Positions 793 to 16,593 of a stretch of 64,000 nt of DNA are shown here, one piece after another. Numbering within the stretch: position 1 is the stretch's first letter; each line of letters begins with the position of its first letter. The notes under the pieces were generated by a model, which had not been told where the DNA came from, searched no databases, and worked only from the letters and a program-made list of their open reading frames with translations. The stretch is from Gammaproteobacteria bacterium (GTDB lineage: Bacteria; Pseudomonadota; Gammaproteobacteria; Steroidobacterales; Foliamicaceae). The DNA lies in the NCBI GenBank assembly GCA_009844425.1, contig VYBN01000045.1, positions 1 through 64,000 of the forward strand, read 5' to 3'. The translations under genes and the position numbers were made by a program.

Positions 793-1998
793 TCAGCCTG
801 CGGAGCGCGGCGCTTCCTTATCGCCCGCGAGATCGGCCCGCAGGCTCTCGGCGACGCGCGCGGCCGACGCCTTCACCGAATCGAGCGCCAGGTGCGCGTA
901 GCGCGCCGTGGTCTGAACCTTCCTGTGGCCCAGCAGCTTGCCGATCATCGGCAGGCTCTCGCCCAGCGCCAGGGCGCGGGAAGCGAAGCTGTGGCGCAGA
1001 TCGTGTATGCGAACGTCGTTCAGACCGGCGCGGGCGCGGATGAGCAGCCAGGGGCTGTTGATGTTGGTGACGCGCCGGCCCGGCTTCGTGCTGGCGATCA
1101 CCCAGGGATTGCCGGGCACGCGGGGCAGCCCTTCCAGCACTCGCCGCGCCGACGGCGAAATCGCCACGGCCCGCGCGCCTGTCTTGGCGTCGCGCAGCCG
1201 AAGCTCCCCGGCGTCGAGATCCACGTCCTCCCAGCGCAGCGTCAGGATCTCGCTCTTGCGGCAGCCCGTCAGCATCAGCAACCGAAACGCCGCCACGGCG
1301 CTGGGCTGCACCTTGCCCTCGGCCTCGACCTCGGCAAGAACGCGGCCCAGGCGCCGGAACTCGTCGTCGGACAGAAACCGCTCGCGGGGCGGTTCGGCGT
1401 ACTTGCGGACGAACCGGCAGGGATTGCCGCCCTCCGGCGCAATCCCCCACAGTTCGGCCATGTTGAACAGCCGCGACAGCAGATCCACCACCTTGTTCGC
1501 CATGGTGGGCGTCTGGTGCAGGCTGTAGTGCAGGGCCGCGACGCGCTCGCGCCCGATCTGTCCGAGGCGGACGTTGCCCAGCCCGGGCAGCAGGTAGCGG
1601 TCGAGGATGTCGCGGCATTGCCGTTGCGTCGCGGGCTTGCAGCGCACCGCGACATGCTCGGTCATGAACCGTTCGGCCACTTCGGCCACGGTGGGGCCGG
1701 CATCCGCCGGGGACGCGCCGTTGTGCAATACCGGCTCGTTGCCGGCCTTGATGTCGGCGATGACCTGCGCGGCCTTGCGCCGCGCCTGGTCCGCGGTGAT
1801 CAGGCCGTGACGGCCGAGCGTCAGCCGGCGCGACCTGCCGCCCGCGCGGGTCTGGACCAGGTAGACCTTGGAACCCGAGGGATAGACGCGAACGCCGAAC
1901 CCCGGCAGCGACGAGTCCCAGTAGACGGCCTCGCGGCCGCCCACGGGCAGCGCCTCGACCGTTCGCTTGGATATCGTTCGCCGCCGAAGCTTCGCCAT
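793..1998 (-). CDS. Tyrosine recombinase / integrase with N-terminal arm-binding domain (second of a tandem pair)
   Basis: A 401-residue phage/island-type tyrosine integrase. The N-terminus (about residues 5-90) resembles the DUF4102/arm-type DNA-binding domain (WDSSLPGFGVRVYPSG), followed by a core-binding SAM-like region. The C-terminal catalytic domain shows the Arg of TGCRKSE, the HDLRHSF box, the GHRK histidine and the nucleophile Tyr of TTARYAHL. It begins 4 bases after the stop of a paralogous integrase on the same strand, so the two are probably co-transcribed. It should cut and join DNA at an attachment site; no tRNA or clear att repeat was recognised nearby. Confidence 0.93.
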   Translation of the reverse strand: MAKLRRRTISKRTVEALPVGGREAVYWDSSLPGFGVRVYPSGSKVYLVQTRAGGRSRRLTLGRHGLITADQARRKAAQVIADIKAGNEPVLHNGASPADAGPTVAEVAERFMTEHVAVRCKPATQRQCRDILDRYLLPGLGNVRLGQIGRERVAALHYSLHQTPTMANKVVDLLSRLFNMAELWGIAPEGGNPCRFVRKYAEPPRERFLSDDEFRRLGRVLAEVEAEGKVQPSAVAAFRLLMLTGCRKSEILTLRWEDVDLDAGELRLRDAKTGARAVAISPSARRVLEGLPRVPGNPWVIASTKPGRRVTNINSPWLLIRARAGLNDVRIHDLRHSFASRALALGESLPMIGKLLGHRKVQTTARYAHLALDSVKASAARVAESLRADLAGDKEAPRSAG

Positions 1999-2002
1999 CG
2001 CG

Positions 2003-3193
2003 CTATTCCAAAATATCCGCGCCGATGCTGTCGGCGACCTTCGCGGTGGAGACCTGGATGGACTCCCTCGCCAGATGCGCGTAGCGGGCCGTGGTGTTCA
2101 CCTGCCGGTGGCCGAGCAGCTCCCCGATCATGGGCAGACCCTCCCCGATCGCAAGCGCGCGGGAGGCGAAGGTGTGCCGGAGATCGTGCAGGCGCACATC
2201 GCCGAGACCGGCGCGGCGACGCACGCGGTCCCAGGAATCGTTGATGTTGACCTGGTGCGTGCCCTTGCTCTTGCCGGGGAATACCCACGGATTGCCGCCG
2301 ATCCTCGGCAGTTCGGCCAGCACCCCGGCGGCTGCGGGCGGCATCGGGACTACGCGGCCGCCCGTCTTGCTGTCCCGCAGCCGCATCTCACCCGCCTTGA
2401 AGTCGAGGTCGTCCCAGGCCAGGCCCATGATCTCGTTCCTGCGGCAACCGGTCAGCACCAGCAGCCGGATCGCCGCCGCCGCGTGCCGCGAGGCCAGACG
2501 CTCGTCAGGGGCGATCTCAAGAACGCGGCCGAGCCGAGCCAGCTCCTTCGGCGTCAGGAACCGCTCCTTGCGCCGCACGACCTTGTAGCGGCGCACCGAC
2601 TTACAGGGATTGCGGCCCGGTGGACGCATCTCCCAAAGCTCCGCGAGGTTGAACATCTTGACCAGCATGTCCACGCAGCGGTTGGCCACCGTGGGCATGT
2701 CGCTCAATTGGAACTGGAACTTGAGAATGTCGCCGCGCTCCACATCGGCGACTTCCAGTTCCCCGAGGCGCGGCACGATGTGCTTCTTGAGCATCAGGCC
2801 GTAGTGCTTCGCCGTGTTGGGCTTGCAGTGCATCGCGACGTGCTCGCGCTGATAACGCCCGGCAAGATCGGCCACGGTCGGCGGGGCCTCGGGTTCAGTC
2901 TCGACCGGCGGCAGGCCGGCCTTGATGCGCGCGATGATCTTCGCGGCGTCCTTGCGGGCCCGGTCCGGCGCGATGTCGCCGTGACGGCCCACGGTGACGC
3001 GCCGGGACTTGCCGGCCACCCTTGTCTGCACCACGTAAACCTTGCGCCCGCTCGGATAGACCCGGATACCGTAGCCCGGCAGCTCCCGGTCCCAGAACAC
3101 GGTATCCTTGTCGTCGACCGACAGGCGGTCCACAGTGCGCTTGGAGAGGGTGCGGTAGCTTGGCTTGGGCATCGCGTTCGTCGGTGGGTTCAT
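2003..3193 (-). CDS. Tyrosine recombinase / integrase (first of a tandem pair)
   Basis: A paralogue of the downstream integrase, about 396 residues from the chosen start. It has the same architecture: an arm-binding N-terminus (WDRELPGYGIRVYPSG), a core-binding domain, and a catalytic domain with TGCRRNE (Arg), HDLRHTF, GHRQ and TTARYAHL (Tyr). The frame stays open to 3304, but the conserved start of the domain (YRTLSKRTVDRL) favours initiation at 3193 or 3172. Starting at 3304 would also overlap the divergent small open frame at 3256. Paired integrases of this type occur at the edge of integrated islands. Both copies keep all catalytic residues. Confidence 0.92.
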   Translation of the reverse strand: MNPPTNAMPKPSYRTLSKRTVDRLSVDDKDTVFWDRELPGYGIRVYPSGRKVYVVQTRVAGKSRRVTVGRHGDIAPDRARKDAAKIIARIKAGLPPVETEPEAPPTVADLAGRYQREHVAMHCKPNTAKHYGLMLKKHIVPRLGELEVADVERGDILKFQFQLSDMPTVANRCVDMLVKMFNLAELWEMRPPGRNPCKSVRRYKVVRRKERFLTPKELARLGRVLEIAPDERLASRHAAAAIRLLVLTGCRRNEIMGLAWDDLDFKAGEMRLRDSKTGGRVVPMPPAAAGVLAELPRIGGNPWVFPGKSKGTHQVNINDSWDRVRRRAGLGDVRLHDLRHTFASRALAIGEGLPMIGELLGHRQVNTTARYAHLARESIQVSTAKVADSIGADILE

Positions 3194-3255
3194 GTCGAGC
3201 CGGATTCGGCAACGCCGGTTTTCCGTAAGCGTGTCGAAAGCGACCGGCTCGAAAT

Positions 3256-3396
3256 ATGAGCGCATTACATCGCATTTTTGGCGTCGATGCAAGAGGTGAG
3301 GCAATAGAGGAACTAGCTATTTGTAGAGAAATTACAATAGGTTACTTCACATGTGCGCGACTTAGCGCGTCTGTGTCGCCGGTTGGGAAACAGTGA
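3256..3396 (+). CDS. Possible 46-residue antitoxin-position ORF coupled to the PIN gene
   Basis: An ATG-initiated 46-codon frame lying divergently from the integrase pair. Its stop codon overlaps the start of the PIN-domain gene (TGATG at 3394-3398). That position and coupling are typical of the antitoxin of a PIN toxin. The residues (starting MSALHRIFGVDARGEA) match no antitoxin family I recognise, and there is no clear ribosome-binding site. It may be a chance frame or a degenerate antitoxin. Confidence 0.25.
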   Translation: MSALHRIFGVDARGEAIEELAICREITIGYFTCARLSASVSPVGKQ

Positions 3397-3818
3397 TGTT
3401 TCTTCTCGACACAAACGTGGTCGTATCGGGGCTGATCAGCTCCGACAAGGACAGTCCCACGGTTTTCGTGCTGGACGCAATGATTGGCAGCGGCCTGGTG
3501 TACCTCCTGTCGCAGAAACTGCTCAACGAATACTCGACCGTCCTGAGGCGCCCCAAGCTGTTGCGGATGCATGGTTTAAGCAGCGAGGACATCGATCGAC
3601 TGCTGACACACCTTGTCGCCAACGCCATGTGGCGGGAACCTGCCGTCATGGGCGAGGCCCCCGACTCTGCGGATGGGCACCTGTGGGCATTGCTCGCCAC
3701 TTTCCCAAGGGCAGTGCTGATAACGGGAGACCAGCTTCTACTCAAGGAACCTCCCTCTCCGGGGTCCGTGATTTCACCGCGTCGCTTCAGGGATATGTAC
3801 CTGTCCGACAGCAAATGA
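3396..3818 (+). CDS. PIN-domain toxin, COG1569-like
   Basis: A 140-residue PIN-domain protein, a presumed metal-dependent RNase toxin. The first conserved acidic residue is in FLLDTNVVVSG near the N-terminus; the other PIN acidic residues are expected around the AELLNEY-like helix (LLNEYSTVL), the SADGHLW segment and ITGDQLLL. Length and layout fit the 'putative toxin-antitoxin component, PIN family' group (COG1569) rather than classic VapC. A GTG at 3393 could also start it. The only candidate antitoxin is the small overlapping frame upstream. Its position beside the integrases suggests it travels with the island. Confidence 0.8.
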   Translation: MFLLDTNVVVSGLISSDKDSPTVFVLDAMIGSGLVYLLSQKLLNEYSTVLRRPKLLRMHGLSSEDIDRLLTHLVANAMWREPAVMGEAPDSADGHLWALLATFPRAVLITGDQLLLKEPPSPGSVISPRRFRDMYLSDSK

Positions 3819-3936
3819 CGCGGCTGCCCCGAAAAACAGTCAAGACAGGCGAACATTTCAGTTCGAACCGTTAGCCCGCCGCGGCGCCAGTGTTCTGTCC
3901 CATAAGGTCCGGCAAGGAAAGGTGTTTACAGGAAAG

Positions 3937-3948
3937 CATACTAGTATG
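3937..3948. promoter_or_regulatory. Perfect dyad CATACTAGTATG upstream of tdh-kbl (candidate operator)
   Basis: A 12-base perfect palindrome in the 229-base gap between the PIN gene and tdh, about 100 bases before the tdh ATG. The rest of this gap shows no gene. The half-site CATACT/AGTATG recurs at 19771-19790, and a 9-of-10 match to its core lies at 9817-9826, each upstream of genes of the same metabolic region. The FCD-type GntR regulator at 8534-9253 is the obvious local candidate to bind it (inference). Confidence 0.4.
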
Positions 3949-4047
3949 GTAGACTTGAGCGGGAAGCGAGCAACCTGGGCAGTGCATGGTCCGTTTGCAG
4001 ATTAAAGCGGTTGGAGCGGTTTCCAAGCCAGATCACGCGCTCGCGAC

Positions 4048-5076
4048 ATGAAGGCCCTCGTCAAGGCGCGGTCCGAACCGGGGCTCTGGCTGCAGGACGT
4101 TGCGGAACCTGAACTCGGCATCAATGATGTTCTCGTGCGCATCGACCGGACCGGTGTCTGCGGCACGGACCTGAGCATCTTCAACTGGGACGCCTGGGCC
4201 CAGGGAACCATAAAAGTACCCATGGTCGTGGGTCATGAATTCGTCGGCGAAGTCATCGAAACCGGATCGAACGTCAGCGATTTTGAGCCCGGCGCAATCG
4301 TCAGCGGCGAAGGCCACGTGGTGTGCGGCACCTGCCGGAACTGCCTCGCCGGGCGCCGGCACCTGTGCGCGGATACCCAGGGGATCGGCGTCAACCGCCC
4401 CGGCGCGTTTGCCGAGTACCTGGTGCTGCCCATGACTAATGTCTGGCACCACGCGCCGGACGTCGATCGGGACGTGGCGTCAATCTTCGATCCGTTCGGC
4501 AACGCCGTGCATACCGCGCTTTCCGTTCCGGTGCTGGGCGAAGACGTGCTGGTCACCGGCTCGGGACCGATCGGCGCGATGGCGGTGGCCGTCGCCAGAC
4601 ACGCCGGCGCACGCTATGTGGTGGCGACGGACGTCAATCCCTACCGACTGGAGCTGGCCAGGAAGATGGGCGCGACCCTGGTGCTGGACGCGCGAACCGA
4701 GCGCGTCGCGGATGCCCAGAAAAAGCTCGGAATGGTGGAGGGATTCGACGTGGGCCTGGAAATGTCGGGCAATGACAGCGCCTTCGAGGAGATGCTGGAC
4801 AACATGTGCCACGGCGGCAAGGTGGCCATGCTGGGGATTCCGAAGACGAAGATGGCGATCGATTGGAACAAGGTCGTGTTCAATATGCTGACCATCAAGG
4901 GAATCTACGGTCGCGAGATGTACGAGACCTGGTACAAAATGACCGTGATGCTGCAGAGCGGGCTCGACATCACACCGGTCATCACCCACCAGTTCCATTA
5001 TTCGGAATTCGGCAAGGCCTTCGAGATCATGCGATCCGGAGATTGCGGGAAGATCATTCTGCACTGGAATGACTGA
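4048..5076 (+). CDS. tdh: L-threonine 3-dehydrogenase
   Basis: A cytosolic zinc enzyme of 342 residues that oxidises L-threonine with NAD+ to 2-amino-3-ketobutyrate. The catalytic zinc ligands are visible as Cys38, His63 and Glu64. The structural zinc cysteines are 93, 96, 99 and 107. A Rossmann motif GSGPIGAMA follows. Length matches E. coli Tdh. It overlaps the next gene, kbl, by 8 bases, the classic tdh-kbl arrangement, so the product is passed straight to the CoA ligase; if it escapes, it decarboxylates to aminoacetone. No clear Shine-Dalgarno is seen. A palindromic candidate operator lies about 100 bases upstream. Confidence 0.97.
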
Positions 5077-6262
5077 TTCGTACGAAGCCTTATCAAGGCA
5101 ATTCGGCGCGACCCTGGGAGCGATCCGGGACCAGGGCCTGCACAAGGACGAGCGCGTACTGACCACGCCGCAGCGGGCCCACATCGGCGTGGCCGGCGGC
5201 GCGCAGGTAATCAATCTGTGCGCCAACAACTACCTCGGGCTGGCGGATCATCCGGAGGTCATACGCGCGGCCCACGAGGGCCTGGACCGCTGGGGATACG
5301 GCCTTTCGTCGGTACGATTCATCTGCGGAACCCAGGCAATCCACAAGGAACTGGAGGCCAGCCTGTCGAATTTCCTGGGAATGGACGACACGATTCTCTA
5401 TACGTCCTGCTTCGATGCGAATACGGGCCTGTTCGAAACGCTTCTGGGGCCGGACGACGCCATCATTTCGGACGAACTGAATCATGCCAGCATCATCGAC
5501 GGCATCCGGCTCTGCAAGGCGCAGCGTTACCGGTATCGCAACAATGACATGGAGGCGCTTGAGACCAGGCTTCAGGCCGCTTCCGGTGCGCGGACCCGCC
5601 TGATCGCAACCGACGGCGTCTTTTCGATGGACGGCGCCATCGCCGATCTGCTCGGCATATGCGACCTGGCCGACAAATATGGCGCGCTGGTCATGGTGGA
5701 CGACTCGCATGGCGTGGGGTTCATGGGAGACAACGGCCGCGGCACGCCCGAATATCACCGGGTCGTCGATCGGATCGATATCGTCACCGGCACACTGGGC
5801 AAGGCGCTGGGAGGCGCCAGCGGCGGCTATACCGCCGCACGGCAGGAGATCGTGGACCTGCTGCGCCAGCGGTCCCGGCCGTACCTGTTCTCCAATTCAC
5901 TGGCGCCGTCGATCGTGACCGCATCGCTCAAGGCCATCGAACTTCTCGCGGACGACACCGAAATCCGCGAGCGCCTTTGGGCCAACACCCGGTTTTTCAG
6001 AGAGCGGATCGCGGCAGCCGGGTTCGAGATCCTGCCGGGACAGCACCCCATCGTGCCGATCATGCTGGGCGATGCCGCGCTCGCCAACCGGTTCGCCAAC
6101 CGAATGCTCGAGAAAGGGGTCTACGTAATCGGGTTTTCCTATCCGGTCGTGCCAAAAGGCAAGGCCCGCATTCGCACACAGATTTCCGCCGCGCATTCGC
6201 TGGAGGACCTGGAAACCGCCGTGGAGAAATTTGCCGAAACGAAGGCCGAAATACGCGCATAG
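5069..6262 (+). CDS. kbl: 2-amino-3-ketobutyrate CoA ligase (glycine C-acetyltransferase)
   Basis: A PLP-dependent alpha-oxoamine synthase family enzyme of 397 residues. It cleaves 2-amino-3-ketobutyrate with CoA to glycine and acetyl-CoA. Family landmarks are the substrate-pocket segment [12 protein letters not shown], the PLP region [11 protein letters not shown] and the Schiff-base lysine in [14 protein letters not shown]. The start overlaps the end of tdh by 8 bases, implying translational coupling. Together they convert threonine to glycine plus acetyl-CoA. It is convergent with the racemase-like gene, with a 37-base gap holding a weak GCGAGA/TCTCGC hairpin without a T-run. Confidence 0.97.
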
Positions 6263-6299
6263 TCCAGAAGGGACACGCGAGACGATCGCCTTCTCGCAC

Positions 6300-7007
6300 T
6301 CATCGACTCTCCGCCACCGCCGCCGCAACCGTCGCCCTGGCCAGTGCCCGGGTAGAGCTGATGACCGGAACGGGCAGTTCGCCTTCGCTTAGAACAAGCG
6401 GGATCTCGGTGCAGCCGGCGATGATTGCCTCGGCCCCCCGCTCGACCAGCGTCCCGGCGAGAACGCGCATTAACCGCTGGACTTCGGGGCCCTTGTCGCC
6501 TGCCTTGATTCGGGTGATCAGTCGCATGAGCCCGGCCACATCCGGTGCGTCGGGAACAACGGGCGCAATGCCCCGGTCGCGCAGGGCTTGCTGGAAACCT
6601 CCGAACTCGAGGCAGCCGTCCGTTGCGAGAATCCCGACGCTCGAGCAGTCATTGCAGGCGTCGGCGGTCACTTCAATGATCGATATCAGCGGTATGGTCG
6701 TGAGTTCCGCCAGCGGCCCCAGAAAGGCATGCGCGGAGTTGCACGGCATCACGAGGAAGTCGGCGCCGGCGGCCTCGAGCCGCCGTCCCATCTGCCCGAT
6801 GATCGGGCCCGGATCATCGCCGTCTGCCAGGATGGCGGCCTGCCTGTTCGGCACCTTGGTGTTGTTGTCGACCAGCATCGGGATGTGGTCCTGGTCACAG
6901 CCGGCCTTGGTGAGCGAGACAACTTCAGACAGGAAGTCGATGGTCGCGTCCGGACCCATGCCGCCCAGGACGCCGACAGTCTTGAAGCTTGCAGAGAGAC
7001 CGCTCAC
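6300..7007 (-). CDS. Aspartate/glutamate racemase family protein (RacD/YgeA type)
   Basis: A 235-residue cofactor-independent amino-acid racemase. The N-terminus GVLGGMGPDAT is diagnostic of the aspartate racemase group. The two catalytic cysteines are visible as MPCNSAH (Cys89) and AGCTEIP (Cys199). It starts with GTG at 7007, with GAGG about 9 bases upstream. The substrate is probably aspartate or glutamate, but broad-specificity YgeA-like enzymes use other amino acids. It lies divergent from an exported amidohydrolase, and the context of threonine and amine degradation suggests a catabolic role. Confidence 0.9.
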   Translation of the reverse strand: MSGLSASFKTVGVLGGMGPDATIDFLSEVVSLTKAGCDQDHIPMLVDNNTKVPNRQAAILADGDDPGPIIGQMGRRLEAAGADFLVMPCNSAHAFLGPLAELTTIPLISIIEVTADACNDCSSVGILATDGCLEFGGFQQALRDRGIAPVVPDAPDVAGLMRLITRIKAGDKGPEVQRLMRVLAGTLVERGAEAIIAGCTEIPLVLSEGELPVPVISSTRALARATVAAAVAESR

Positions 7008-7130
7008 GCCCGAGGCCTCGAACCGGGTTTTATTGTCATCACGTCTGTCACGCTACCGGACTCGTCCCATGGCTCTGCATTTCACAATAGCAAGGGTGAA
7101 TTAACATAGTATTTCAGAATTGTGGGAATA

Positions 7131-8537
7131 ATGATCTTGAGTCAGCCGGAAGCCAGAATTCTCCTGCATACCCCGTCTCTGGCCGGTAATTCCGTGGCCG
7201 TTCAAGCACGGAGGGCACGGTGTTTGATAGTCGGGTTGGTGTTTCTGCTGGTGGGCAATCCCGTCCCTGCCGAGAATGTCGCCATTATCCATGCGGGCAC
7301 CTTGATAACGCCCGTCGACGGGGCACTGGAATCCACCAAATCCAGGACGATCGTGATCGTCGGGGACAAGGTTGCGCGAGTGGAGGATGGTTTTCCCACC
7401 CCCGGGGAGTTGGGGTTTGAGGATTCGAGCTCCGCGACACTGATTGATCTCAAGGACAGTTACGTCCTTCCGGGGCTGATAGACGGACACGTCCATCTCA
7501 CTGCGCTGCCTGTAGGCAACAGGCGCCTGGGTTTTGTGGTCTTCTCGGACGCGGACCGCGCCATTCTTGGCGCGGCGGCCGCCAAGAGGACTCTTTTGGC
7601 CGGGTTTACCACGGTTCGCGACCTAGGCGCCCGGGGACCCGATTCGATATATGCGCTGCGTGATGGAATCAGCCGCGGCGATGTTGCCGGTCCAAGAATC
7701 CTGGCGTCGGGGCAGACCATTACCCCGACAGGCGGACATATCGACAGGAGTACCGGGTTTCGGCACGGACTTTTCGAATTTTTTACTCCTTCCGGCGTAT
7801 GCGACGGTGCGGCCGAGTGCACCAAGGCCGTGCGCCGGCAAATCAGAGACTCGGCGGAAGCCATCAAGTTGACGTCCACAGGAGGCGTTCTCAGCGCAGC
7901 CACCGCCGGCGTAGGTCAACAGTTCACAAGCGCGGAGCTGGAATCAATAGTCGATACCGCCCATTCCCTGGGGCGAAGGGTTGCGGCCCACGCCCACGGC
8001 CTAGACGGGATCAATGCCGCATTGGACGCGGGCGCCGATTCCATAGAACACGGCACCTTTCTCGACGAAAGCAGCATTCTTCGCTTCAGGGAGAGTGGCG
8101 CCTTTCTGGTCCCGACGCTTCTGGCGGGCGATACCATTTCGCGCTGGGCGGAACTGGAGGATTCTCCCCTTCCCGCAGCTCAAAAGGAAAAGGCCCTTGT
8201 CGTGGGTCCTCAGATGCTCATGGCAACCCGCAAGGCGCACGAAGCGGGAATAAGGATTGCCCTGGGTTCGGATTCCGGCATGGACGGTCACGGCAAGAAC
8301 TGCGGAGAGTTCGGCCTGCTGGTCGAAGCCGGTCTTTCCAACGAGGAGGCCTTGCTGGCCTCTCTGGTCAATGCCGCGGAGAATCTGGGCATGGCGGACC
8401 AAATAGGCAGGATCCAGGAGGGATACTACGCAGACGTCATTGCCACCTCGACGGACCCGACGGAAGACATCGATGCGCTCTGTTCAATCGAAATGGTGAT
8501 CAAGGGCGGGGTGGCCCATCTGTCGCAGCGAGACTAG
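7131..8537 (+). CDS. Exported amidohydrolase, Xaa-Pro dipeptidase/imidazolonepropionase-like (COG1228)
   Basis: A metal-dependent hydrolase of about 468 residues with a (beta/alpha)8 fold. Motifs appear in order: GLIDGHVHL (first metal His pair), IKLTSTGG (lysine expected to be carbamylated), AAHAHG, SIEHGTFLDE and GSDSGM (catalytic Asp). A hydrophobic segment (CLIVGLVFLLVG ... VPAE) looks like a signal peptide but begins about 30 residues in. A GTG at 7194 would give a tidier exported protein; GTG 7122 is also possible. COG1228 members cleave Xaa-Pro or acylated amino acids in the periplasm; the substrate is unknown. The stop overlaps the convergent GntR gene by 4 bases. Confidence 0.88.
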   Translation: MILSQPEARILLHTPSLAGNSVAVQARRARCLIVGLVFLLVGNPVPAENVAIIHAGTLITPVDGALESTKSRTIVIVGDKVARVEDGFPTPGELGFEDSSSATLIDLKDSYVLPGLIDGHVHLTALPVGNRRLGFVVFSDADRAILGAAAAKRTLLAGFTTVRDLGARGPDSIYALRDGISRGDVAGPRILASGQTITPTGGHIDRSTGFRHGLFEFFTPSGVCDGAAECTKAVRRQIRDSAEAIKLTSTGGVLSAATAGVGQQFTSAELESIVDTAHSLGRRVAAHAHGLDGINAALDAGADSIEHGTFLDESSILRFRESGAFLVPTLLAGDTISRWAELEDSPLPAAQKEKALVVGPQMLMATRKAHEAGIRIALGSDSGMDGHGKNCGEFGLLVEAGLSNEEALLASLVNAAENLGMADQIGRIQEGYYADVIATSTDPTEDIDALCSIEMVIKGGVAHLSQRD

Positions 8538-9253
8538 GCGCGCCTGGAACCGCGCGAGCGAATCACCGTGTGACTGTCCCTGGGCTTGTCAAGTCTCTGA
8601 AGGAGCATGGCCTCGACGTTGGCAATATGCTCTTCAATAATCGACTGCGCGCCCTTGATGTCGTTTTGCTTGATGGCCGCGATCAATTGACGATGCTGTT
8701 TCAGCGCGGCATTCAACCGGGTCTTTGTGAACGGCAACAGTTGCCTTAGGGCATGCAATCTGTTGGAAATGCCGTGATAGGACTGAATGAGAAATGGATT
8801 CTCGCTCGCCTCGATCAGTGCGCGGTGAAAAGCGGTGTCCAGTTGATGACACTCTTCGAGATTGACGCTGAGCGCCTTGGCGGCCTGTCTCACGTTGTCG
8901 ACCAATGTCTGAACGAAAATTTCCTTGTGGTCGGATTTCGCCAGAATCTTGAGAGCCGCCGATTCCAACACGAGACGCATCTGGCAGATCGACACGATTT
9001 CATCGGGGTCGGGGCCAAAAACGTAGGTGCCGGACTGGGGCCTTACATCCACGAGCCCCTCGACGGCAAGCGACATGATCGCTTCCCGTACGGGAGTCCG
9101 GCTGATCTGCAGGTCTTCCGCTATGCTTTGCTCGGAAATCTGAGATCCAAGCGGAAGTCGCCCCGAGGTGATCTCCTCACGGAGCATATGCGCCACCTTC
9201 ACCCTCAGCGGCGCCACTTTCATGTCCAGAATGTTTAAATTCGTTCGATTCAC
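8534..9253 (-). CDS. GntR-family transcriptional regulator, FCD (FadR) subfamily
   Basis: A 239-residue regulator. The winged helix-turn-helix covers about residues 15-80 (EEITSGRLPLGSQISEQ, then ISRTPVREAIMSL). An all-helical FCD ligand domain follows to about residue 225, with the expected Asp/His metal-binding pattern (HQLDTAFHRALIEAS). FCD regulators commonly respond to carboxylic acids or amino-acid breakdown products. It sits between the exported amidohydrolase (convergent) and the GlcG-like/amine dehydrogenase genes. It is the only regulator in the 4-25 kb block, so it is the best candidate for controlling the CATACT/AGTATG-type sites (inference). Confidence 0.92.
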   Translation of the reverse strand: MNRTNLNILDMKVAPLRVKVAHMLREEITSGRLPLGSQISEQSIAEDLQISRTPVREAIMSLAVEGLVDVRPQSGTYVFGPDPDEIVSICQMRLVLESAALKILAKSDHKEIFVQTLVDNVRQAAKALSVNLEECHQLDTAFHRALIEASENPFLIQSYHGISNRLHALRQLLPFTKTRLNAALKQHRQLIAAIKQNDIKGAQSIIEEHIANVEAMLLQRLDKPRDSHTVIRSRGSRRA

Positions 9254-9852: not shown

Positions 9853-11007
9853 GTGTTCCCGGCCGTACTGTCCTTCCTGCTGACGCTGTCGATTTTTTCG
9901 GCCGGCGCCTTTGCGCAGGTTCCTCTGGACACCATTCCCAATTCGCGCACGCTCCCCGGGGAATATCCCGAAAGCTGGGTCATCGTTCAGGACTTCAACT
10001 ATCCGACGATGGTGCTGGGCGGCTACATCATCATAGACGTTGCCGCGAAAACCGATCAGGTGAAAGGCCAGTTTCAGGGAGCGCAGTTCGCAGGCCTTGC
10101 CTGGTCGAAAAAACGCGCCGAGCTCTACGTTGCCGAGAGCTACTACGAAAACGTGGGCTACGGTCAGCGCAGCGATCTGGTGACGATATACGAACAGGCA
10201 AACCTGCAGGCAATCGGCAAGGTCCCGCTGCCCGGCAACAAGCGGGCATTCATGAGCCCCCGAACCGCAATGACGCGCCTGACCGGCAATGAGCGATTCC
10301 TGCTGATCTTCAACTTCACGCCTGCGGCATCGGTCACGGTGGTCGACATGGAACAGAGGACCGTTGCAGGCGAAGTCCAGATTCCGGGCTGCACGTTCAT
10401 CTACCCCTATGCGGACCAGAGTTTCTTCACGCTGTGCGGCGACGGATCCCTGGCCCACTTCACCTTGAATGCGTCCGGCGACGTGATTGAAGAGGGGCTG
10501 ACCGATCCGTTCAACGATATCGATAACGATGCCATGTACATGACACCGGGCGTCTTCGATCAGATTTTTTATTTCCCGACTCAGTTCGGCAGGTTGCAAC
10601 CGGTCGATCTGTCAGGCGCCGAGCCGGTAGTTCTTCCGGACTGGAGCCTGATCAGCGAAGAAGAAGAGCAGGACCGCTGGCGGCCCGTAAGGCGTGAAAC
10701 GGTTGATGTCGACCGCTCCGGAACTCTCTACGTGCTGATGCACAGGGTTGAAGAAGACGGCGCGCGCATCGGGGGCACATCCGAAGTCTGGTCGTTCGAT
10801 CCGGCAGCCCGAAAGCGCGTCGGGCGCATCGGGTTACGCAAGGACGCATCCGCGCTTGCAGTCACGGGGGGAGACAGCCCCCACCTGGTATTGCTTTCCG
10901 GAAATGGATTCGGCGTTTATGACGCGAAAACCGGAGAATTCATCCAGGAGATAGGAGGCTGGTGGGAAGATGCGACGACGTTTCAGCTGATCCACACCAA
11001 CAAATGA
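9853..11007 (+). CDS. mauB: Amine dehydrogenase large (alpha) subunit, MauB/AauB family
   Basis: A periplasmic beta-propeller subunit of a tryptophan tryptophylquinone (TTQ) amine dehydrogenase, 384 residues. A signal peptide ends near FAQ (residue 22). The mature part resembles the methylamine dehydrogenase heavy chain family, with repeated blade motifs (YVAESYYENVGYGQRSDLVTIYE; QIPGCTFIYPYADQSFFTLCGDGS). This subunit forms the active-site channel and docks the TTQ subunit. It starts with GTG and is the first gene of a mauB-E-D-A operon, overlapping mauE by 4 bases. Whether the substrate is methylamine, an aromatic amine or something else cannot be read from the sequence. Confidence 0.9.
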   Translation: MFPAVLSFLLTLSIFSAGAFAQVPLDTIPNSRTLPGEYPESWVIVQDFNYPTMVLGGYIIIDVAAKTDQVKGQFQGAQFAGLAWSKKRAELYVAESYYENVGYGQRSDLVTIYEQANLQAIGKVPLPGNKRAFMSPRTAMTRLTGNERFLLIFNFTPAASVTVVDMEQRTVAGEVQIPGCTFIYPYADQSFFTLCGDGSLAHFTLNASGDVIEEGLTDPFNDIDNDAMYMTPGVFDQIFYFPTQFGRLQPVDLSGAEPVVLPDWSLISEEEEQDRWRPVRRETVDVDRSGTLYVLMHRVEEDGARIGGTSEVWSFDPAARKRVGRIGLRKDASALAVTGGDSPHLVLLSGNGFGVYDAKTGEFIQEIGGWWEDATTFQLIHTNK

Positions 11008-11573
11008 GCTGGCACATGATCGATCCGCTGGCACAAATGCTTGTCGCTCTTTTCCTGGCGGGATTTTTCCTGTCCGGCGGGTTCCACAAGTTCAGGGATT
11101 TTGAACGATTTGTTTCGCTGCTGGGGAAATATGACGTCGTTCGTCCGGATCTGCTTGCCCCCGCCGCGGGCCTGGTCGTGGCGGTTGAGACGACTATCGG
11201 ACTCGCGCTCTTGACGTCTCTCCTGTTCCCGCAATTGCGGATTCTCGGAATGGGTGGATTTGCTGTGGGCGCCGCGCTCCTGTTCGCGTACCTGTTGTTG
11301 ATGGCTTACTCTCTTGCAAGAGGAAATCGGGAAATAGACTGCGGTTGCTCCTTTCACAAGCAACGATCGCTGCTCTCGGCCTGGCATCTCTGCCGGAATG
11401 CCGTCCTGATCCTGATTTGTCTGGCCGGCGTGCTGCCCGTCACCGCGCGCGAACTGCAAACCATTGATTGGCTCCATCTGCCGTTGATGGTACTGGCCGC
11501 CGGTATGCTGTATGTCCTGGTCGATACGTTGCTTGCGAACAGAAGTTATCTGACCCCGAACTCAACAGCATGA
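11004..11573 (+). CDS. mauE: MauE-like membrane protein for amine dehydrogenase maturation
   Basis: A 189-residue integral membrane protein with about four to five predicted helices and the MauE/DoxX-type start (ALFLAGFFLSGGFHKFRDF). A central DCGCSF segment carries the conserved cysteine pair. MauE is required, with MauD, for folding and disulfide formation of the TTQ light chain. I chose ATG at 11004, which overlaps the mauB stop as ATGA; the frame continues further upstream inside mauB, but that is not needed. It overlaps mauD by 4 bases. Confidence 0.88.
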   Translation: MSWHMIDPLAQMLVALFLAGFFLSGGFHKFRDFERFVSLLGKYDVVRPDLLAPAAGLVVAVETTIGLALLTSLLFPQLRILGMGGFAVGAALLFAYLLLMAYSLARGNREIDCGCSFHKQRSLLSAWHLCRNAVLILICLAGVLPVTARELQTIDWLHLPLMVLAAGMLYVLVDTLLANRSYLTPNSTA

Positions 11574-12220
11574 CCAATTTTCTCGTAGTTTCCAATCTGA
11601 TCCTCTGGATCCTGGTACTGGTCCTTGGGATCATTGCCTTTGCCCTCGCGCGTCAGGTCGGGGTCCTGTTCGAGCGAATCGCACCGGCGGGCGCGCTCGC
11701 GATGAACAGGAAGCTGGCCGGCGGCGATGTCGCTCCGACGATGCGTCTGGACACGATCGACGGAGGAAAAATCGAAATCGGCAAACCAACCGATGCCGAC
11801 AGCAAAGACAAGGCGCAGCTGATATTTTTCCTCGCTCCCGGGTGTCCGATCTGCAAGACCCTGCTGCCGGCCATCAAGTCAATCGCGGCCAGGGAGCGTG
11901 GCTGGCTTGACCTTGTGTTCGCCAGCGATGGCGAATCGCGCGACGCGCACGTCGAGTTTATCGACAGGCACAGGATCGGCAGTTACCCGTACGTCTTGTC
12001 GCAGTCGCTCGGTATTGAGTTCGGGGTCAGTCAACTGCCGTTCGCGGTACTCATCGATGACGACGGTCGAATCAGCGGACTGGGGCTGACAAATTCGCGC
12101 GAGCACCTGGAGAGTCTGATCGAAACGCAAGTGATGAAGGTCTCGACCATACAGGAACACCTGGAACTGGTCGATTTCGGCATCAAGGCGCCCGATAGCG
12201 CCAACGTGCGGCCTCAATGA
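11570..12220 (+). CDS. mauD: MauD-like membrane-anchored thioredoxin-fold protein
   Basis: 216 residues with one N-terminal membrane anchor (residues about 5-28) and a periplasmic thioredoxin-like domain. The redox motif is CPIC at residues 92-95 within FFLAPGCPICKTL. In the methylamine dehydrogenase pathway, MauD acts with MauE to make or isomerise the many disulfides of the light chain. It starts at ATG 11570, overlapping the mauE stop (ATGA). It is followed 37 bases later by the light-chain gene, which has its own site (GGGAGGGG about 7 bases before the ATG). Confidence 0.9.
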   Translation: MTNFLVVSNLILWILVLVLGIIAFALARQVGVLFERIAPAGALAMNRKLAGGDVAPTMRLDTIDGGKIEIGKPTDADSKDKAQLIFFLAPGCPICKTLLPAIKSIAARERGWLDLVFASDGESRDAHVEFIDRHRIGSYPYVLSQSLGIEFGVSQLPFAVLIDDDGRISGLGLTNSREHLESLIETQVMKVSTIQEHLELVDFGIKAPDSANVRPQ

Positions 12221-12257: not shown

Positions 12258-12815
12258 ATGTCGTTTGTAGAGAAGCTGTCGGAAAAAATGACACGGCAAC
12301 TGGCGCAACGCACCTCCCGGCGCAGCCTGCTTGGCGGCCTGGGTTCGCTGCTCGTGGGCGGCGCCGCCCTGCCCCTTTTGCCTGTGGCCAGGGTCCATGC
12401 CGACCAGGAGCCCGGGGGCTATGAAGGGGTTGCCCCCAGGCCGCCGGTGAGTGACGGGGAAGAGGGAAGCCAGACGAGCTGCGACTACTGGCGTTACTGC
12501 GGCATCGGCGGACCGCTATGCGCATGTTGCGGAGGCAGCGCAAATGCCTGCCCGCCGGGGACCGTCATGTCACCGCTCTCCTGGATCGGAACCTGCCTCA
12601 ATCCTGCCGACGACGTCTACTACATCATTTCCTACAACGATTGTTGCGGGAAACCCACGTGCAAGAGATGTTTGTGTTCTCCGCATGATCCCAATGCGAA
12701 GCCCCCGATCAGGTCGCAGTCGAGCCGGGCCTACCTCTGGTGCATGGGCTCCGGGGAAACGACGTTTACCTGCTCGACCTCGAATGTCGTCGGCATAGCC
12801 GTCCAGCAAAAGTAG
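12258..12815 (+). CDS. mauA: TTQ amine dehydrogenase small (beta) subunit precursor, Tat-exported
   Basis: A 185-residue precursor. A twin-arginine signal (TSRRSLLGG, residues 19-27) directs folded export. The mature part keeps the cysteine-rich light-chain core starting CDYWRYC at 75. Trp109 (PLSWIGTC) and Trp161 (LWCMG) align with the two tryptophans that form TTQ. Asp128 (YNDCCG) aligns with the catalytic/biogenesis Asp76 of Paracoccus methylamine dehydrogenase. Two oddities: the position of the other biogenesis Asp (Asp32 in Paracoccus) is Gly84, and there are 14 mature cysteines instead of 12 (extra ones at 91 and 135). The stop overlaps the next gene by one base. Confidence 0.92.
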   Translation: MSFVEKLSEKMTRQLAQRTSRRSLLGGLGSLLVGGAALPLLPVARVHADQEPGGYEGVAPRPPVSDGEEGSQTSCDYWRYCGIGGPLCACCGGSANACPPGTVMSPLSWIGTCLNPADDVYYIISYNDCCGKPTCKRCLCSPHDPNAKPPIRSQSSRAYLWCMGSGETTFTCSTSNVVGIAVQQK

Positions 12816-14374
12816 TGGCGGCGGCCCCGGCTGTGCGCTTTCTCGCGCTATGCGTTTCGCTGCTGCTGTCCGTGGGCGGCAACGCCTCGGAACCTCCCGA
12901 TCCTGAAAACGCACCGGCCCTGTCCGGCGCGGAACTCAACTGGACCATGAGCTGCAGAGGTTGCCACGGTACGAATGCCGAGGGAACCGAAGGTGGCGCG
13001 CCGAACATGGCGGGCCAGGTGTCCCGCTTCCTCAAGGTGGAAGGCGGGCGGCAATACCTGGTTCGCGTGCCCGGCGTCGCCTTTGCCAGTCTCTCCGATG
13101 CCGAGGTGGCGGAACTGATGAACTGGATGCTCTGGAAGTTCGACAAGGAGAACATCCCCGACTCTTTTTCTCCGTATGACGAGAAGGAGGTCGGCCGTCT
13201 GCGTGAGAAACCTCTATTAACCAGCGTCGCGGAAGTTCGGCGGGAACTGATACTCAAGATCGACGACACTCCCGGGCCCGATCACATCGGCAAGGTGCTC
13301 ACGGTCACGGGCGCCATCGAGCCCGACCGGCTGGGTGAAACGTTGATGCATGAGCATCTTTTCATCGACTTCTGGTTGCCCGCCGATGAGCCGGCCCGCT
13401 GGAACCAGCTCTTCGGCCGGACCCCGCCCACTTCGCCCGAGCAGTTGAAGGCATGGAGGCAGCCTTTGACCATGCACAACCGCACCGGGATGGCCGCCCG
13501 TCTGTGGGCCAACAGGGACGCCTTCACTCTGGACAGCCTGCAGGACGCACTGGATGAAGTGTCCGATTTCCGTGAGCTTGGGGGCGGCGCGATTGTTGAC
13601 GTCACGTCCATCGGACTCAACAGGCAACCGGAAAAACTGAAAGAGGTATCGGAGCGCACGGGAGTCCGGATTGTGATGGGCACCGGCTATTACCGAACCG
13701 CCTGGCATCCCGTAACGCTGATGGACATGAGCGTCCGTGATCTGGCCCTGCGGATGTATGAGGACATCACCGTCGGCGTGAATGGCACGACGGTAAAGGC
13801 GGGAATCATCGGCGAAATACCGATCGAGAAAATTACTTCCGCGGAGCCCGTAACGGGTGAATCGAAAGTACTTCGGGCGGCGGCGATGGCAAGTTCATGG
13901 ACGGGCGCGGCCATTTCGATTCACAGCGATTTTTACGATATGTCAAAACTCACGCTGGCACTCGACCTGCTCGAAAGAGATGGCGCGGACCTTTCCCGCG
14001 TCATCCTGGGCCACATATCGAACGCGGCGGTGGCGGACCTTGCATTTCTTGAGGGTCTGTTGCAGCGGGGGGTCTTTCTTCAGTTCGACGTGTTCGGAAA
14101 CCCCTGGCAGTTGAGCATGAATGATCTGCGTGGCGCCGAAGCCATTCTTTCGCTGGTGGAAAAGGGCTACTCGAAGCAGATCCTGGTGTCGCATGACCTG
14201 TGTACGAAATTTCAGCTGACCCGGTTCGGGGGCTTCGGACTGAAATATGTGCATACGGTGCTGTTGCCTTATTTTCGCGACCAGGGGATGACGGAAGCTC
14301 AAATCGACGACATCATGACAGGCAATCCCGCCCGGGTACTCCCGCTTTCGAGGCCCTGGAAAAGCCCTCATTGA
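12815..14374 (+). CDS. Fusion protein: exported monohaem cytochrome c domain + phosphotriesterase-family domain
   Basis: 519 residues from a GTG that shares one base with the mauA stop (TAGTG). A signal peptide (about 1-24) is followed by a small cytochrome c domain with haem motif CRGCH at 47-51, running to about residue 115. A phosphotriesterase-family domain then fills 160-519: HEH at 179-181, a bridging Glu334 in IIGEI (the related PTER branch has Glu in place of the carbamylated Lys), His370, His400 and Asp461 (SHD). The last gene of the mau operon, it should be periplasmic. The cytochrome could accept electrons from the TTQ enzyme, while the hydrolase may act on a lactone or ester. I know of no described protein with this pairing. 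Confidence 0.85.
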   Translation: MAAAPAVRFLALCVSLLLSVGGNASEPPDPENAPALSGAELNWTMSCRGCHGTNAEGTEGGAPNMAGQVSRFLKVEGGRQYLVRVPGVAFASLSDAEVAELMNWMLWKFDKENIPDSFSPYDEKEVGRLREKPLLTSVAEVRRELILKIDDTPGPDHIGKVLTVTGAIEPDRLGETLMHEHLFIDFWLPADEPARWNQLFGRTPPTSPEQLKAWRQPLTMHNRTGMAARLWANRDAFTLDSLQDALDEVSDFRELGGGAIVDVTSIGLNRQPEKLKEVSERTGVRIVMGTGYYRTAWHPVTLMDMSVRDLALRMYEDITVGVNGTTVKAGIIGEIPIEKITSAEPVTGESKVLRAAAMASSWTGAAISIHSDFYDMSKLTLALDLLERDGADLSRVILGHISNAAVADLAFLEGLLQRGVFLQFDVFGNPWQLSMNDLRGAEAILSLVEKGYSKQILVSHDLCTKFQLTRFGGFGLKYVHTVLLPYFRDQGMTEAQIDDIMTGNPARVLPLSRPWKSPH

Positions 14375-14427: not shown

Positions 14428-16521
14428 TCAATCGTCGGCGCCGGAAGGGGCGCCTTTTCTCAGGTTCGCTCGGTCCTGGACGTAGTACTTGATTGCGTCG
14501 GACTCGTCCTGCGTCAGAACGTCGGCATGCGCGGGCATTCCGTTGGATTCAAGCGTCCCGTCAAGAACGATTTCCGTCCAGATGCCAAAGATTGAAATGT
14601 GCGAATGCCTGAGGTCGGAAACATTGCCGCCACTTGCGGCATTCGGACCGTGGCAATGCATGCAGTGCGCATGGTAGAGCCTGTCGCCAAGTCCAACCAT
14701 GGCTGACTGCTCCACGGTAAGCGTCACCGCTTCATAATTGTCCGCCGGCCAATCAATTCTTGCGGGCAAGGGGCGGTCGCCGCCCAAGCTGAAAGCGAAC
14801 AGGGCCGCGTTTCTAGCCATGTTGTAGCCTGGATGCGCATGGCCCCCAAGAATGGCTATGTATTGCCGACCGTCCACCTCATAGGAAATCGGCCCGCCGA
14901 CGGCGCCCGTGTTGAGGGAGGCCGACCAAAGCCTTTCGCCCGTCCTTGCATGGTAGGCCGCAAACTCACCGGATCGATCGGACTGAAACACCAGTTCTCC
15001 GGCGGTTGAAAGAACGCTGCCGCCGCGCGGCGGATTACGGCTGGCCCGCCAGGCCTCTTTCTGGGCCACCGGGTCCCAGGCGAGCAGGTATTGACCCTCG
15101 AGCGTCACGCCCCTTTCCTCGAGGATCGAAGCCAGATCCTGCCACGGCCTGTATCCCAGGTCCTGCCGGAAACGGCCCTGCACTTCAACGATGTCGTCGG
15201 TCTGGGTAAACAGGAAGGCCGTTTCGTTTACCGCCATGAACATCAGCCCGGAAGGCCGGTGAAAAGACATGCCGTGCCAATTCCGGTGGCCACTCGGTCC
15301 CGGGATGCCCAGGAACGGTTCTTCGATGAATCTTGCATTGGGGTGTTCGACGGGGCGACCGGTCTCCATGTCAACATGCGAGGCCCAGTTCACGGTGGCA
15401 ATCGGGTCCGCCGACAGGAGTTCGCCGGAACGGCGATCCAGCACATAAAAGAAGCCGTTTTTCGGCGACTGCATGATGACCTGGCGCAACTGGCCATCAA
15501 TCTCGATATCGGTCAGGACCATGGGCGAGGTAGCGGTAAAGTCCCAGGAATCGCCTGGCGTGGTCTGGTAGTGCCAGACGTAGTCCCCGGTCGTCGCATT
15601 GAGCGCAACGATGGACGACAGGAAAAGATTGTCGCCCCCACCCGGGCTGCGGGTCTCCCGATTCCATGGGGACCCGTTCCCCACACCGATGTAGACAAGA
15701 TCCAGCTCCGGGTCATAGGACATGGAGTCCCAGACGGTTCCACCGCCGCCGTTTTCCCACCAGGCGCCGTTCCAGGTGCCGGCAGCCATTTCCATGGCGG
15801 CATTCTCGAACCCGTCTCCCGGGTTCCCGGGTACCGTGTAAAAGCGCCAGGCCAGTTCGCCCGTGTCCTTGTTGTAGGCCGACACATAACCCCGGACAGC
15901 GAACTCGGCGCCGGCGTTCCCGATAAGGACGTTTTCTCCGGCAATACGCGGCGCCCCCGAGCTTGAATAGAGCCCTTCGCCGTCTATCGTGTCCACTTTC
16001 CAGATCTCCTCACCGCTCTCCATGTCCAGAGCGAAAAGCTGACCATCGAAAGCGGCCGCGAAGACCTTGCCGTCCGAACTCGTGGGACCCCTGTTCAGGA
16101 CGGTGCAGCAGGCTCCCCGCACCGCACTGTGATCGGGCTCGGGGTCGTATCTCCAGATCAGCTCTCCGGAGGCGCCGTCAACCTTGCTCACGACACCCCA
16201 TCCGTCGGTGACGAAAAGGGATCCGTTCACCGCGATCGGAGTGCCCTTGAGGTTCGTTGCCGTAGCGACCGGCATGCGCCAGGCGAGTCCCAGTTCAGAG
16301 ACATTGGAGTGTGAAATCTGATCCAGCGGGGAAAACCGGTCCTCACTGAAATTTCGTCCGGTATTGGGCCAATTCCCGTCAACCACCGTCGAAAGCCCCG
16401 CGCCATCGGTCGGGGAAGTAGATTCGCCACCTTCGCCGCAGGCTGAGGTAGACAGTGCCGCCGCTGCCGCAAACAGTATCGGCAATGCACTACTGCAAAT
16501 GCCTGATGAAATCTTCACCAT
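14428..16521 (-). CDS. PQQ-dependent quinohaemoprotein alcohol dehydrogenase
   Basis: About 697 residues: an export signal (possibly lipoprotein, Cys28 in STSAC, though the box is atypical), an eight-bladed PQQ propeller with W-motif repeats, and a C-terminal cytochrome c. The vicinal disulfide pair that contacts PQQ is at about 138-139 (GACC). The catalytic Asp region is WDFTATSP. The haem motif CMHCH is near residue 620, with a likely Met ligand about 40 residues later (NGMPA). It starts at ATG 16521 with AAGG about 8 bases upstream. Such type II enzymes oxidise alcohols, aldehydes or polyols in the periplasm and pass electrons through their own haem. It is convergent with the cytochrome-hydrolase gene and lies downstream of the TonB receptor. 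Confidence 0.92.
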   Translation of the reverse strand: MVKISSGICSSALPILFAAAAALSTSACGEGGESTSPTDGAGLSTVVDGNWPNTGRNFSEDRFSPLDQISHSNVSELGLAWRMPVATATNLKGTPIAVNGSLFVTDGWGVVSKVDGASGELIWRYDPEPDHSAVRGACCTVLNRGPTSSDGKVFAAAFDGQLFALDMESGEEIWKVDTIDGEGLYSSSGAPRIAGENVLIGNAGAEFAVRGYVSAYNKDTGELAWRFYTVPGNPGDGFENAAMEMAAGTWNGAWWENGGGGTVWDSMSYDPELDLVYIGVGNGSPWNRETRSPGGGDNLFLSSIVALNATTGDYVWHYQTTPGDSWDFTATSPMVLTDIEIDGQLRQVIMQSPKNGFFYVLDRRSGELLSADPIATVNWASHVDMETGRPVEHPNARFIEEPFLGIPGPSGHRNWHGMSFHRPSGLMFMAVNETAFLFTQTDDIVEVQGRFRQDLGYRPWQDLASILEERGVTLEGQYLLAWDPVAQKEAWRASRNPPRGGSVLSTAGELVFQSDRSGEFAAYHARTGERLWSASLNTGAVGGPISYEVDGRQYIAILGGHAHPGYNMARNAALFAFSLGGDRPLPARIDWPADNYEAVTLTVEQSAMVGLGDRLYHAHCMHCHGPNAASGGNVSDLRHSHISIFGIWTEIVLDGTLESNGMPAHADVLTQDESDAIKYYVQDRANLRKGAPSGADD

Positions 16522-16593
16522 CAAAGTACCTTATCCGAATGGAGCCCCGCACCGATTAAGAGAGGCTCCAGCCAAGCATCTGGCCTGTAGATG

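Follow-up and report, generated by a model that had tools for sequence, protein, structure and literature searches.

A cytochrome c fused to a PTER-like hydrolase in a TTQ amine dehydrogenase operon of aromatic-amine type

Results

A fusion gene directly behind mauA

The stretch of DNA analysed here (the window, 64,000 nucleotides of genome G000) carries a TTQ amine dehydrogenase operon with the gene order mauB, mauE, mauD, mauA, followed by a gene in which a monohaem cytochrome c domain is joined to a hydrolase of the phosphotriesterase family (Table 1). The safest inference is that an enzyme of the aromatic amine dehydrogenase (AADH) type has a partner cytochrome to which the hydrolase is tethered. 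Going further, we tentatively favour the reading that this operon is an AADH-type one whose companion cytochrome, by its fusion to a PTER-like hydrolase, would have a primary amine set free beside the dehydrogenase.

Table 1. Coordinates of the operon genes and of the parts of the fusion protein in the window
Feature	Position	Strand	Basis and remarks
TTQ amine dehydrogenase heavy chain (mauB/aauB-like)	9853..11007	+	Pfam Me-amine-dh_H 7.7e-32
mauE, membrane maturation protein	11007..11573	+	Pfam MauE 1.4e-20
mauD, thioredoxin-like maturation protein	11567..12220	+	TIGR02661 MauD 2.9e-48, below curated cut-off
TTQ light chain (mauA/aauA-like)	12258..12815	+	Pfam Me-amine-dh_L 8.1e-38; column comparison
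Fusion gene	12815..14374	+	leader (by eye), monohaem cytochrome c domain, phosphotriesterase/PTER-like domain; 519 aa
Cytochrome domain	12923..13264	+	residues ~37-150; end approximately that of stand-alone relatives
Haem motif CRGCH	12953..12967	+	residues 47-51 of the fusion protein
VPG	13067..13075	+	residues 85-87; longer loop at the same place in Met-bearing paralogues
Phosphotriesterase-family barrel	13283..14350	+	residues 157-512; ligands H179, H181, E334, H370, H400, D461

The reading frame of the fusion gene is uninterrupted from the GTG at 12815 to the stop codon ending at 14374. As the first-pass annotation of this DNA had pointed out, base 12815 is common to the start codon (GTG, 12815-12817) and the stop codon of mauA (TAG, 12813-12815). 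Residues 1-25 resemble a signal peptide by eye, and Pfam recognises Cytochrom_C at residues 38-75 (1.9e-5) and PTE at 168-509 (1.1e-62), in agreement with the two-domain protein described in that annotation, which the leader suggests to be exported. In the predicted structure of the fusion protein, pLDDT by block is 70-97 from residue 161 onward and mostly below 50 in the cytochrome region. For the six pairs among the fused genomes, dN/dS was 0.06-0.19 for the hydrolase and 0.12-0.41 for the cytochrome (leaving out the leader of one genome, which was shifted by one codon); purifying selection acts on both domains. Cytochrome and hydrolase were aligned separately, as a joint MAFFT alignment of single-domain rows misaligned the hydrolase N-termini. 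An assembly join or a frameshift between the domains, raised earlier as a possible objection, is unlikely in view of these selection data and of the same post-mauA fusion in three other genomes (G060, G080 and G086).

A full-length match (residues 2-519) was obtained in four of the 147 genomes of the order, namely the window genome and these three, which all belong to one genus of uncultured gammaproteobacteria and whose fusions are 96-98% identical to the window copy. In all four carriers mauA lies immediately upstream, which bears out the proposed coupling to a TTQ amine dehydrogenase and answers, for one genus and within what was searched, the question whether this architecture always follows mauA. 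Close relatives do share the fusion (four of the nine genomes of the genus), contrary to the total absence that had been named as evidence against it. The other five comprise four genomes in which no mauA match exceeds the family cut-off and one, G068, with mauB, mauA and an unfused cytochrome; the mauA family thus exceeds its cut-off in five of nine genus genomes, and weaker matches span the leader region only. In a class sample of 369 genomes, a match to both domains at E 1e-20 was found in G000 alone, and among the plasmid records, 207 of which gave a match, none reached 80% query coverage. A scan of genome contigs gave 26 loci, two of which contain both domains (L002 and L003, taken to be those of genomes G086 and G080). 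As far as searched, the fusion is confined to one genus, and its occurrence in four genomes 96-98% alike probably reflects one event. Literature searches on TTQ clusters, the aau cytochrome and MauG-less TTQ returned neither the fusion nor the cytochrome among the matches listed (titles and abstract openings, few subscription journals).

Several neighbouring genes deserve mention. A PQQ-dependent alcohol dehydrogenase with a C-terminal haem domain (14428-16524) is convergent with the fusion gene and adjoins it in all four genomes, and an amidohydrolase upstream of the operon (7122-8537; best NCBIfam match Xaa-Pro dipeptidase, below cut-off) is likewise kept in all four. Farther away, a UGSC-family protein (PF24696; 21202-21801) adjoins an ORF of 483 residues that has no Pfam match, and the gene at 34569-36053 is DNA methylase-like by eye.

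The amine dehydrogenase

Heavy and light chain together with MauE and MauD make up the gene set of an aromatic-amine-type TTQ dehydrogenase, for which TTQ formation and amine oxidation are predicted. Matches to the NCBIfam MADH and MauD models fall below the cut-offs. Among solved chains, the heavy chain scores 114 bits with AADH and 93 bits with the best MADH chain, and the mature light chain also scores higher with AADH than with MADH; for the full-length light chain, the top single match is 3c75, a MADH chain whose structure includes the leader.

The light chains of the fused genomes retain both TTQ tryptophans and the Asp76-type Asp. The same holds for 51 of the 52 other distinct chains, all but the fragment L090, and the window light chain has 14 Cys, as in three relatives. 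At three positions the fused-genome chains carry Gly, Arg and Leu, as against Asp, Asn and Asn in 49, 50 and 49 of the 52 other distinct chains. The Gly replaces the second active-site Asp, which we take to be Asp32 in MADH and Asp84 in AADH (from the alignment and the numbering of these enzymes). The fused clade is not alone in such changes, since Gly, Asp and Leu occupy the three positions in the unfused locus L064. Lying at near-invariant residues, the changes may indicate a shifted substrate or mechanism. The fused branch of the light-chain tree is long (1.7 changes per column, with a warning of long-branch joining from the tree tool), and dN/dS of mauA among the four fused genomes is 0.04-0.10 in five pairs and 0.32 in one pair with two changes. 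For mauE (window 11007-11573), dN/dS within the fused clade reaches 0.50-0.64 in three pairs, above mauB, most mauA pairs and the fusion gene. An Asp near the cofactor is described as conserved in tryptophylquinone enzymes in PMC7876137.

The hydrolase domain

Judged by the alignment, the metal-ligand residues of the phosphotriesterase-family (PF02126) barrel are complete, and those listed in Table 1 do not vary across an alignment of 22 proteins chosen from the loci, which upholds the earlier description of a complete PTE-like domain. Foldseek placed 3k2g, a PTER-like protein of Rhodobacter sphaeroides (33-35% identity), first among solved structures, followed by PTER (9efb/9efa). The solved chain of 3k2g has no cytochrome, unlike the window protein. 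With PTER, an N-acetyltaurine amidohydrolase and the closest relative whose reaction is known, the window hydrolase shares the fold, the metal-ligand residues including the Glu, and 31% identity (Foldseek); it differs from PTER in its leader (by eye) and in the fusion to a cytochrome. The docked substrate of PTER is associated with R204, R233 and H300 in PMC11374699. By hand count on the alignment, F373, N403 and C463 stand at these positions in the window hydrolase; C463 is invariant in the 22 aligned rows, 3k2g likewise has Asn at the R233 position, and the arginines are retained in some bacterial relatives (e.g. L012, L014). Because of these replacements the preference of PTER does not carry over. 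We regard a taurine-directed function as unlikely, since the substrate arginines are missing, and their loss would point to an amine without sulfonate or carboxylate. The families matched by the hydrolase include lactonases and organophosphate hydrolases. A stand-alone relative with a leader (by eye; L048, 44% identity) was found in the order; the other TTQ stretches read contained no hydrolase of the phosphotriesterase family.

Amidases of another family do occur in TTQ clusters. In L065 (9285-12307) and L066 (5168-6661), PF01425 amidases with lipoprotein-like leaders (by eye) follow the TTQ cytochromes on the strand of the cluster, with a sodium-solute symporter in between in L065. The amidase-family gene after the cytochrome in L059 has neither leader nor GGSSGG motif, so that two of three pairings are clean. 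Three such genes were observed in 16 stretches against 0.31 expected from genome-wide counts (Poisson P ~0.004, in a post hoc test, the amidases having been noticed first). Aldehyde dehydrogenases are also present in TTQ clusters of the order. In L054 (7288-17130) and L052 (2819-10349), genes for a TPP/4Fe-4S oxidoreductase (POR_N, TPP_enzyme_C, Fer4) and for an AMP-binding ligase come after the TTQ cluster. They are presumably akin to indolepyruvate oxidoreductase and to phenylacetate-CoA ligase, and would point to aromatic amines as the substrate there.

The companion cytochrome

With MADH clusters set aside, 62 of the 66 distinct loci found through mauA have the cytochrome at most 1.5 kb downstream on the same strand. 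The remaining four are L116, L141 (whose genome has a second mauA copy, with cytochrome), L171 from Thermomicrobium and the fragment L090. Overall, the cytochrome lies beside 77 of 83 distinct loci, some of them found through the cytochrome itself, and two of the six loci without it belong to genomes that carry it elsewhere (L136, L137). Within the order, all 33 mauA genomes have a match (E < 1e-14) as against none of the 114 others, in a tally of 147 genomes in which the loop was not inspected match by match, some alignments cross stop codons, five further genomes with matches at 1e-5 to 1e-3 were left out, and all 147 are taken to be in the mauA sample. In another class the figures are 10 of 10 mauA genomes over the cut-off versus 0 of 288 others (E 1e-6), G786 having just a broken light chain that scores below threshold. 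MauG-less TTQ clusters usually have the cytochrome as a companion, and the link between it and mauA is general rather than peculiar to the window locus. As a separate gene product, it is 90-129 residues long when counted from the first residue of CxxCH, in 77 distinct sequences that are not truncated. In Novosphingobium aromaticivorans DSM 12444 the unfused gene, SARO_RS19985 (L129 9369-9854), carries the annotation hypothetical.

The window cytochrome belongs to a family that, on alignment, is without the conserved axial Met of a class I His/Met electron-transfer cytochrome c. The best Met column reaches 41% in 81 distinct family members versus 100% in 35 distinct c552-like paralogues, the two sets being divided not by Met but by score to the family profile, which itself has no Met loop; the window protein has some Met residues, none of them at a conserved position. 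The best match of the profile is Thermus c552 (1dt1, 1c52; 3.7e-20), in two pieces that skip ~20 c552 residues. These additional residues of c552, located at the VPG place, are presumably the holders of the axial Met. A second, weaker-matching cytochrome is present in 31 of the 62 distinct cytochrome-bearing loci, and in the two-cytochrome clusters inspected the first is of the Met-bearing and the second of the loopless type.

MauG and known TTQ clusters

On plasmids (18 records examined of 31 with a match), the six clusters with mauF and mauJ all have MauG and lack the loopless cytochrome, whereas the eleven without mauF/mauJ all have the cytochrome and lack MauG; L171 has neither. In the stretch of L171 that was read (1720-9137, from a Thermomicrobium plasmid), light-chain and MauE-type genes are annotated. 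A search for MauG elsewhere in the window genome with PF03150 found none, nor did the three other fused genomes give a match (completeness of the four 94.4, 95, 93 and 66%). PF03150 is absent from 10 of 30 TTQ genomes, including the four fused and two single-contig ones; the remaining 20 have it on contigs other than that of mauA or more than 50 kb away. A cupredoxin/amicyanin match (PF00127) was likewise not obtained in the window genome. In G088, mauE, mauD and the loopless cytochrome lie together at 1.2 Mb from mauB-mauA (L062 7087-8625 and L136 5824-7445 for the two loci), so that the cytochrome travels with the maturation genes, and one PF03150 match lies ~6-7 kb from this separate locus. 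In L047, L063, L065 and L066, the cytochrome is beside mauB-mauA with neither mauE nor mauD nearby.

The window operon is closest to the aau clusters. That of a Pseudomonas plasmid (LT969519, L128: aauB-mauE-mauD-aauA and two cytochromes) has the same gene order, a loopless cytochrome after the light chain and no MauG, and AADH is the closest enzyme by score to the heavy chain and mature light chain of the window. The aau cluster of Alcaligenes faecalis is said to contain a small monohaem cytochrome (orf-2) and no mauG. The window departs from L128 in having its cytochrome fused to a hydrolase, one cytochrome instead of two, and three near-invariant light-chain residues changed. With the mau cluster of Paracoccus denitrificans (NC_008688, L127) it has homologues of mauB, E, D and A in common, but neither MauG nor a cupredoxin was found in the window genome, and mauF and mauJ were not seen beside the fused operon (L049-L051). 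MauG is described as the TTQ enzyme of MADH in PMC7876137, whose main text does not contain the term 'aromatic amine'.

Discussion

In the mechanism that we propose, the leader would direct export of the fusion protein, in which a short linker joins the cytochrome end to end with a PTER-like binuclear-metal hydrolase. The cytochrome part would keep its family role at the dehydrogenase, be it redox service or cofactor maturation, and would thereby hold the hydrolase beside the dehydrogenase in the periplasm. There, the hydrolase would cut an N-acyl amine (amide) to a primary amine, and the TTQ enzyme would oxidise the released amine to aldehyde and ammonia. We favour amine release because the fusion directly follows mauA in all four carriers, the same cytochrome is a separate protein elsewhere, and both domains are under selection. 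Amide hydrolysis is suggested by the known reaction of PTER, and its use to feed the dehydrogenase by the presumably exported amidases in the sister clusters L065 and L066, a convergent pairing. Liberation of an amine from a protected form, as put forward in the first-pass annotation, would accordingly be the most likely role of the hydrolase. On the other hand, members of the phosphotriesterase family also cut lactones, esters and phosphotriesters, and the fusion could be accidental. The replaced PTER residues, the leaderless gene of L059, the lack of a family hydrolase in the other TTQ stretches read and the altered light chain of unfused L064 count against this reading as well.

The possibility of accident, with co-expression of former neighbours as the only gain and an unrelated hydrolase substrate such as a lactone, would fit the restriction to one genus and the lactonases and organophosphate hydrolases among the matched families. 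We nevertheless consider it distinctly unlikely, as both parts and their junction are retained in four genomes with selection on both, and amidases recur in TTQ clusters.

For the role of the cytochrome, acceptor and maturation factor both fit. That it is a plain electron acceptor of the TTQ enzyme, the hydrolase being a tethered helper, seems rather unlikely to us. An acceptor other than a PF00127 blue-copper protein would be needed in the window genome, window mauA is followed by one cytochrome only, and the family is related to Thermus c552; yet the family lacks the axial-Met loop, so that electron acceptor is not the obvious role, and where two cytochromes were inspected in a cluster it is the first that keeps the loop. 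The electron-acceptor role proposed earlier hence stands as one possibility, weakened by the absent loop, which tilts against a plain acceptor. The alternative that the loopless cytochrome serves MauG-less clusters as the haem protein of TTQ maturation, and that the fusion adds a hydrolase to it, draws on the mutual exclusion with MauG on the plasmids, the TTQ genomes without PF03150, the co-occurrence with mauA and the arrangement in G088; O2 or peroxide chemistry would be in keeping with an open haem site. Against this, a dedicated redox partner would show the same distribution, MauG is a di-haem protein and a mono-haem one would need another mechanism, mauE and mauD are not near the cytochrome in four loci, four of 66 mauA-found loci do without it, and in 20 of 30 genomes some PF03150 protein could serve from elsewhere. 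On balance, we judge maturation unlikely; and a little less likely again is the combined proposal that the loopless cytochrome matures TTQ in aromatic-amine-type dehydrogenases and is fused here to a substrate-making amidohydrolase, next to a light chain without the second active-site Asp.

Under the reading that we tentatively prefer, with the amine set free beside the dehydrogenase, the fusion provides a TTQ amine dehydrogenase with a hydrolase partner and leads to a testable route from amide via amine to aldehyde outside the cytoplasm. The survey also makes testable how aromatic-amine-type enzymes obtain TTQ in the absence of MauG: a single small haem gene that occurs at 62 of 66 mauA-found loci and in none of the six MauG-bearing clusters is a clear candidate for the TTQ maturation question.
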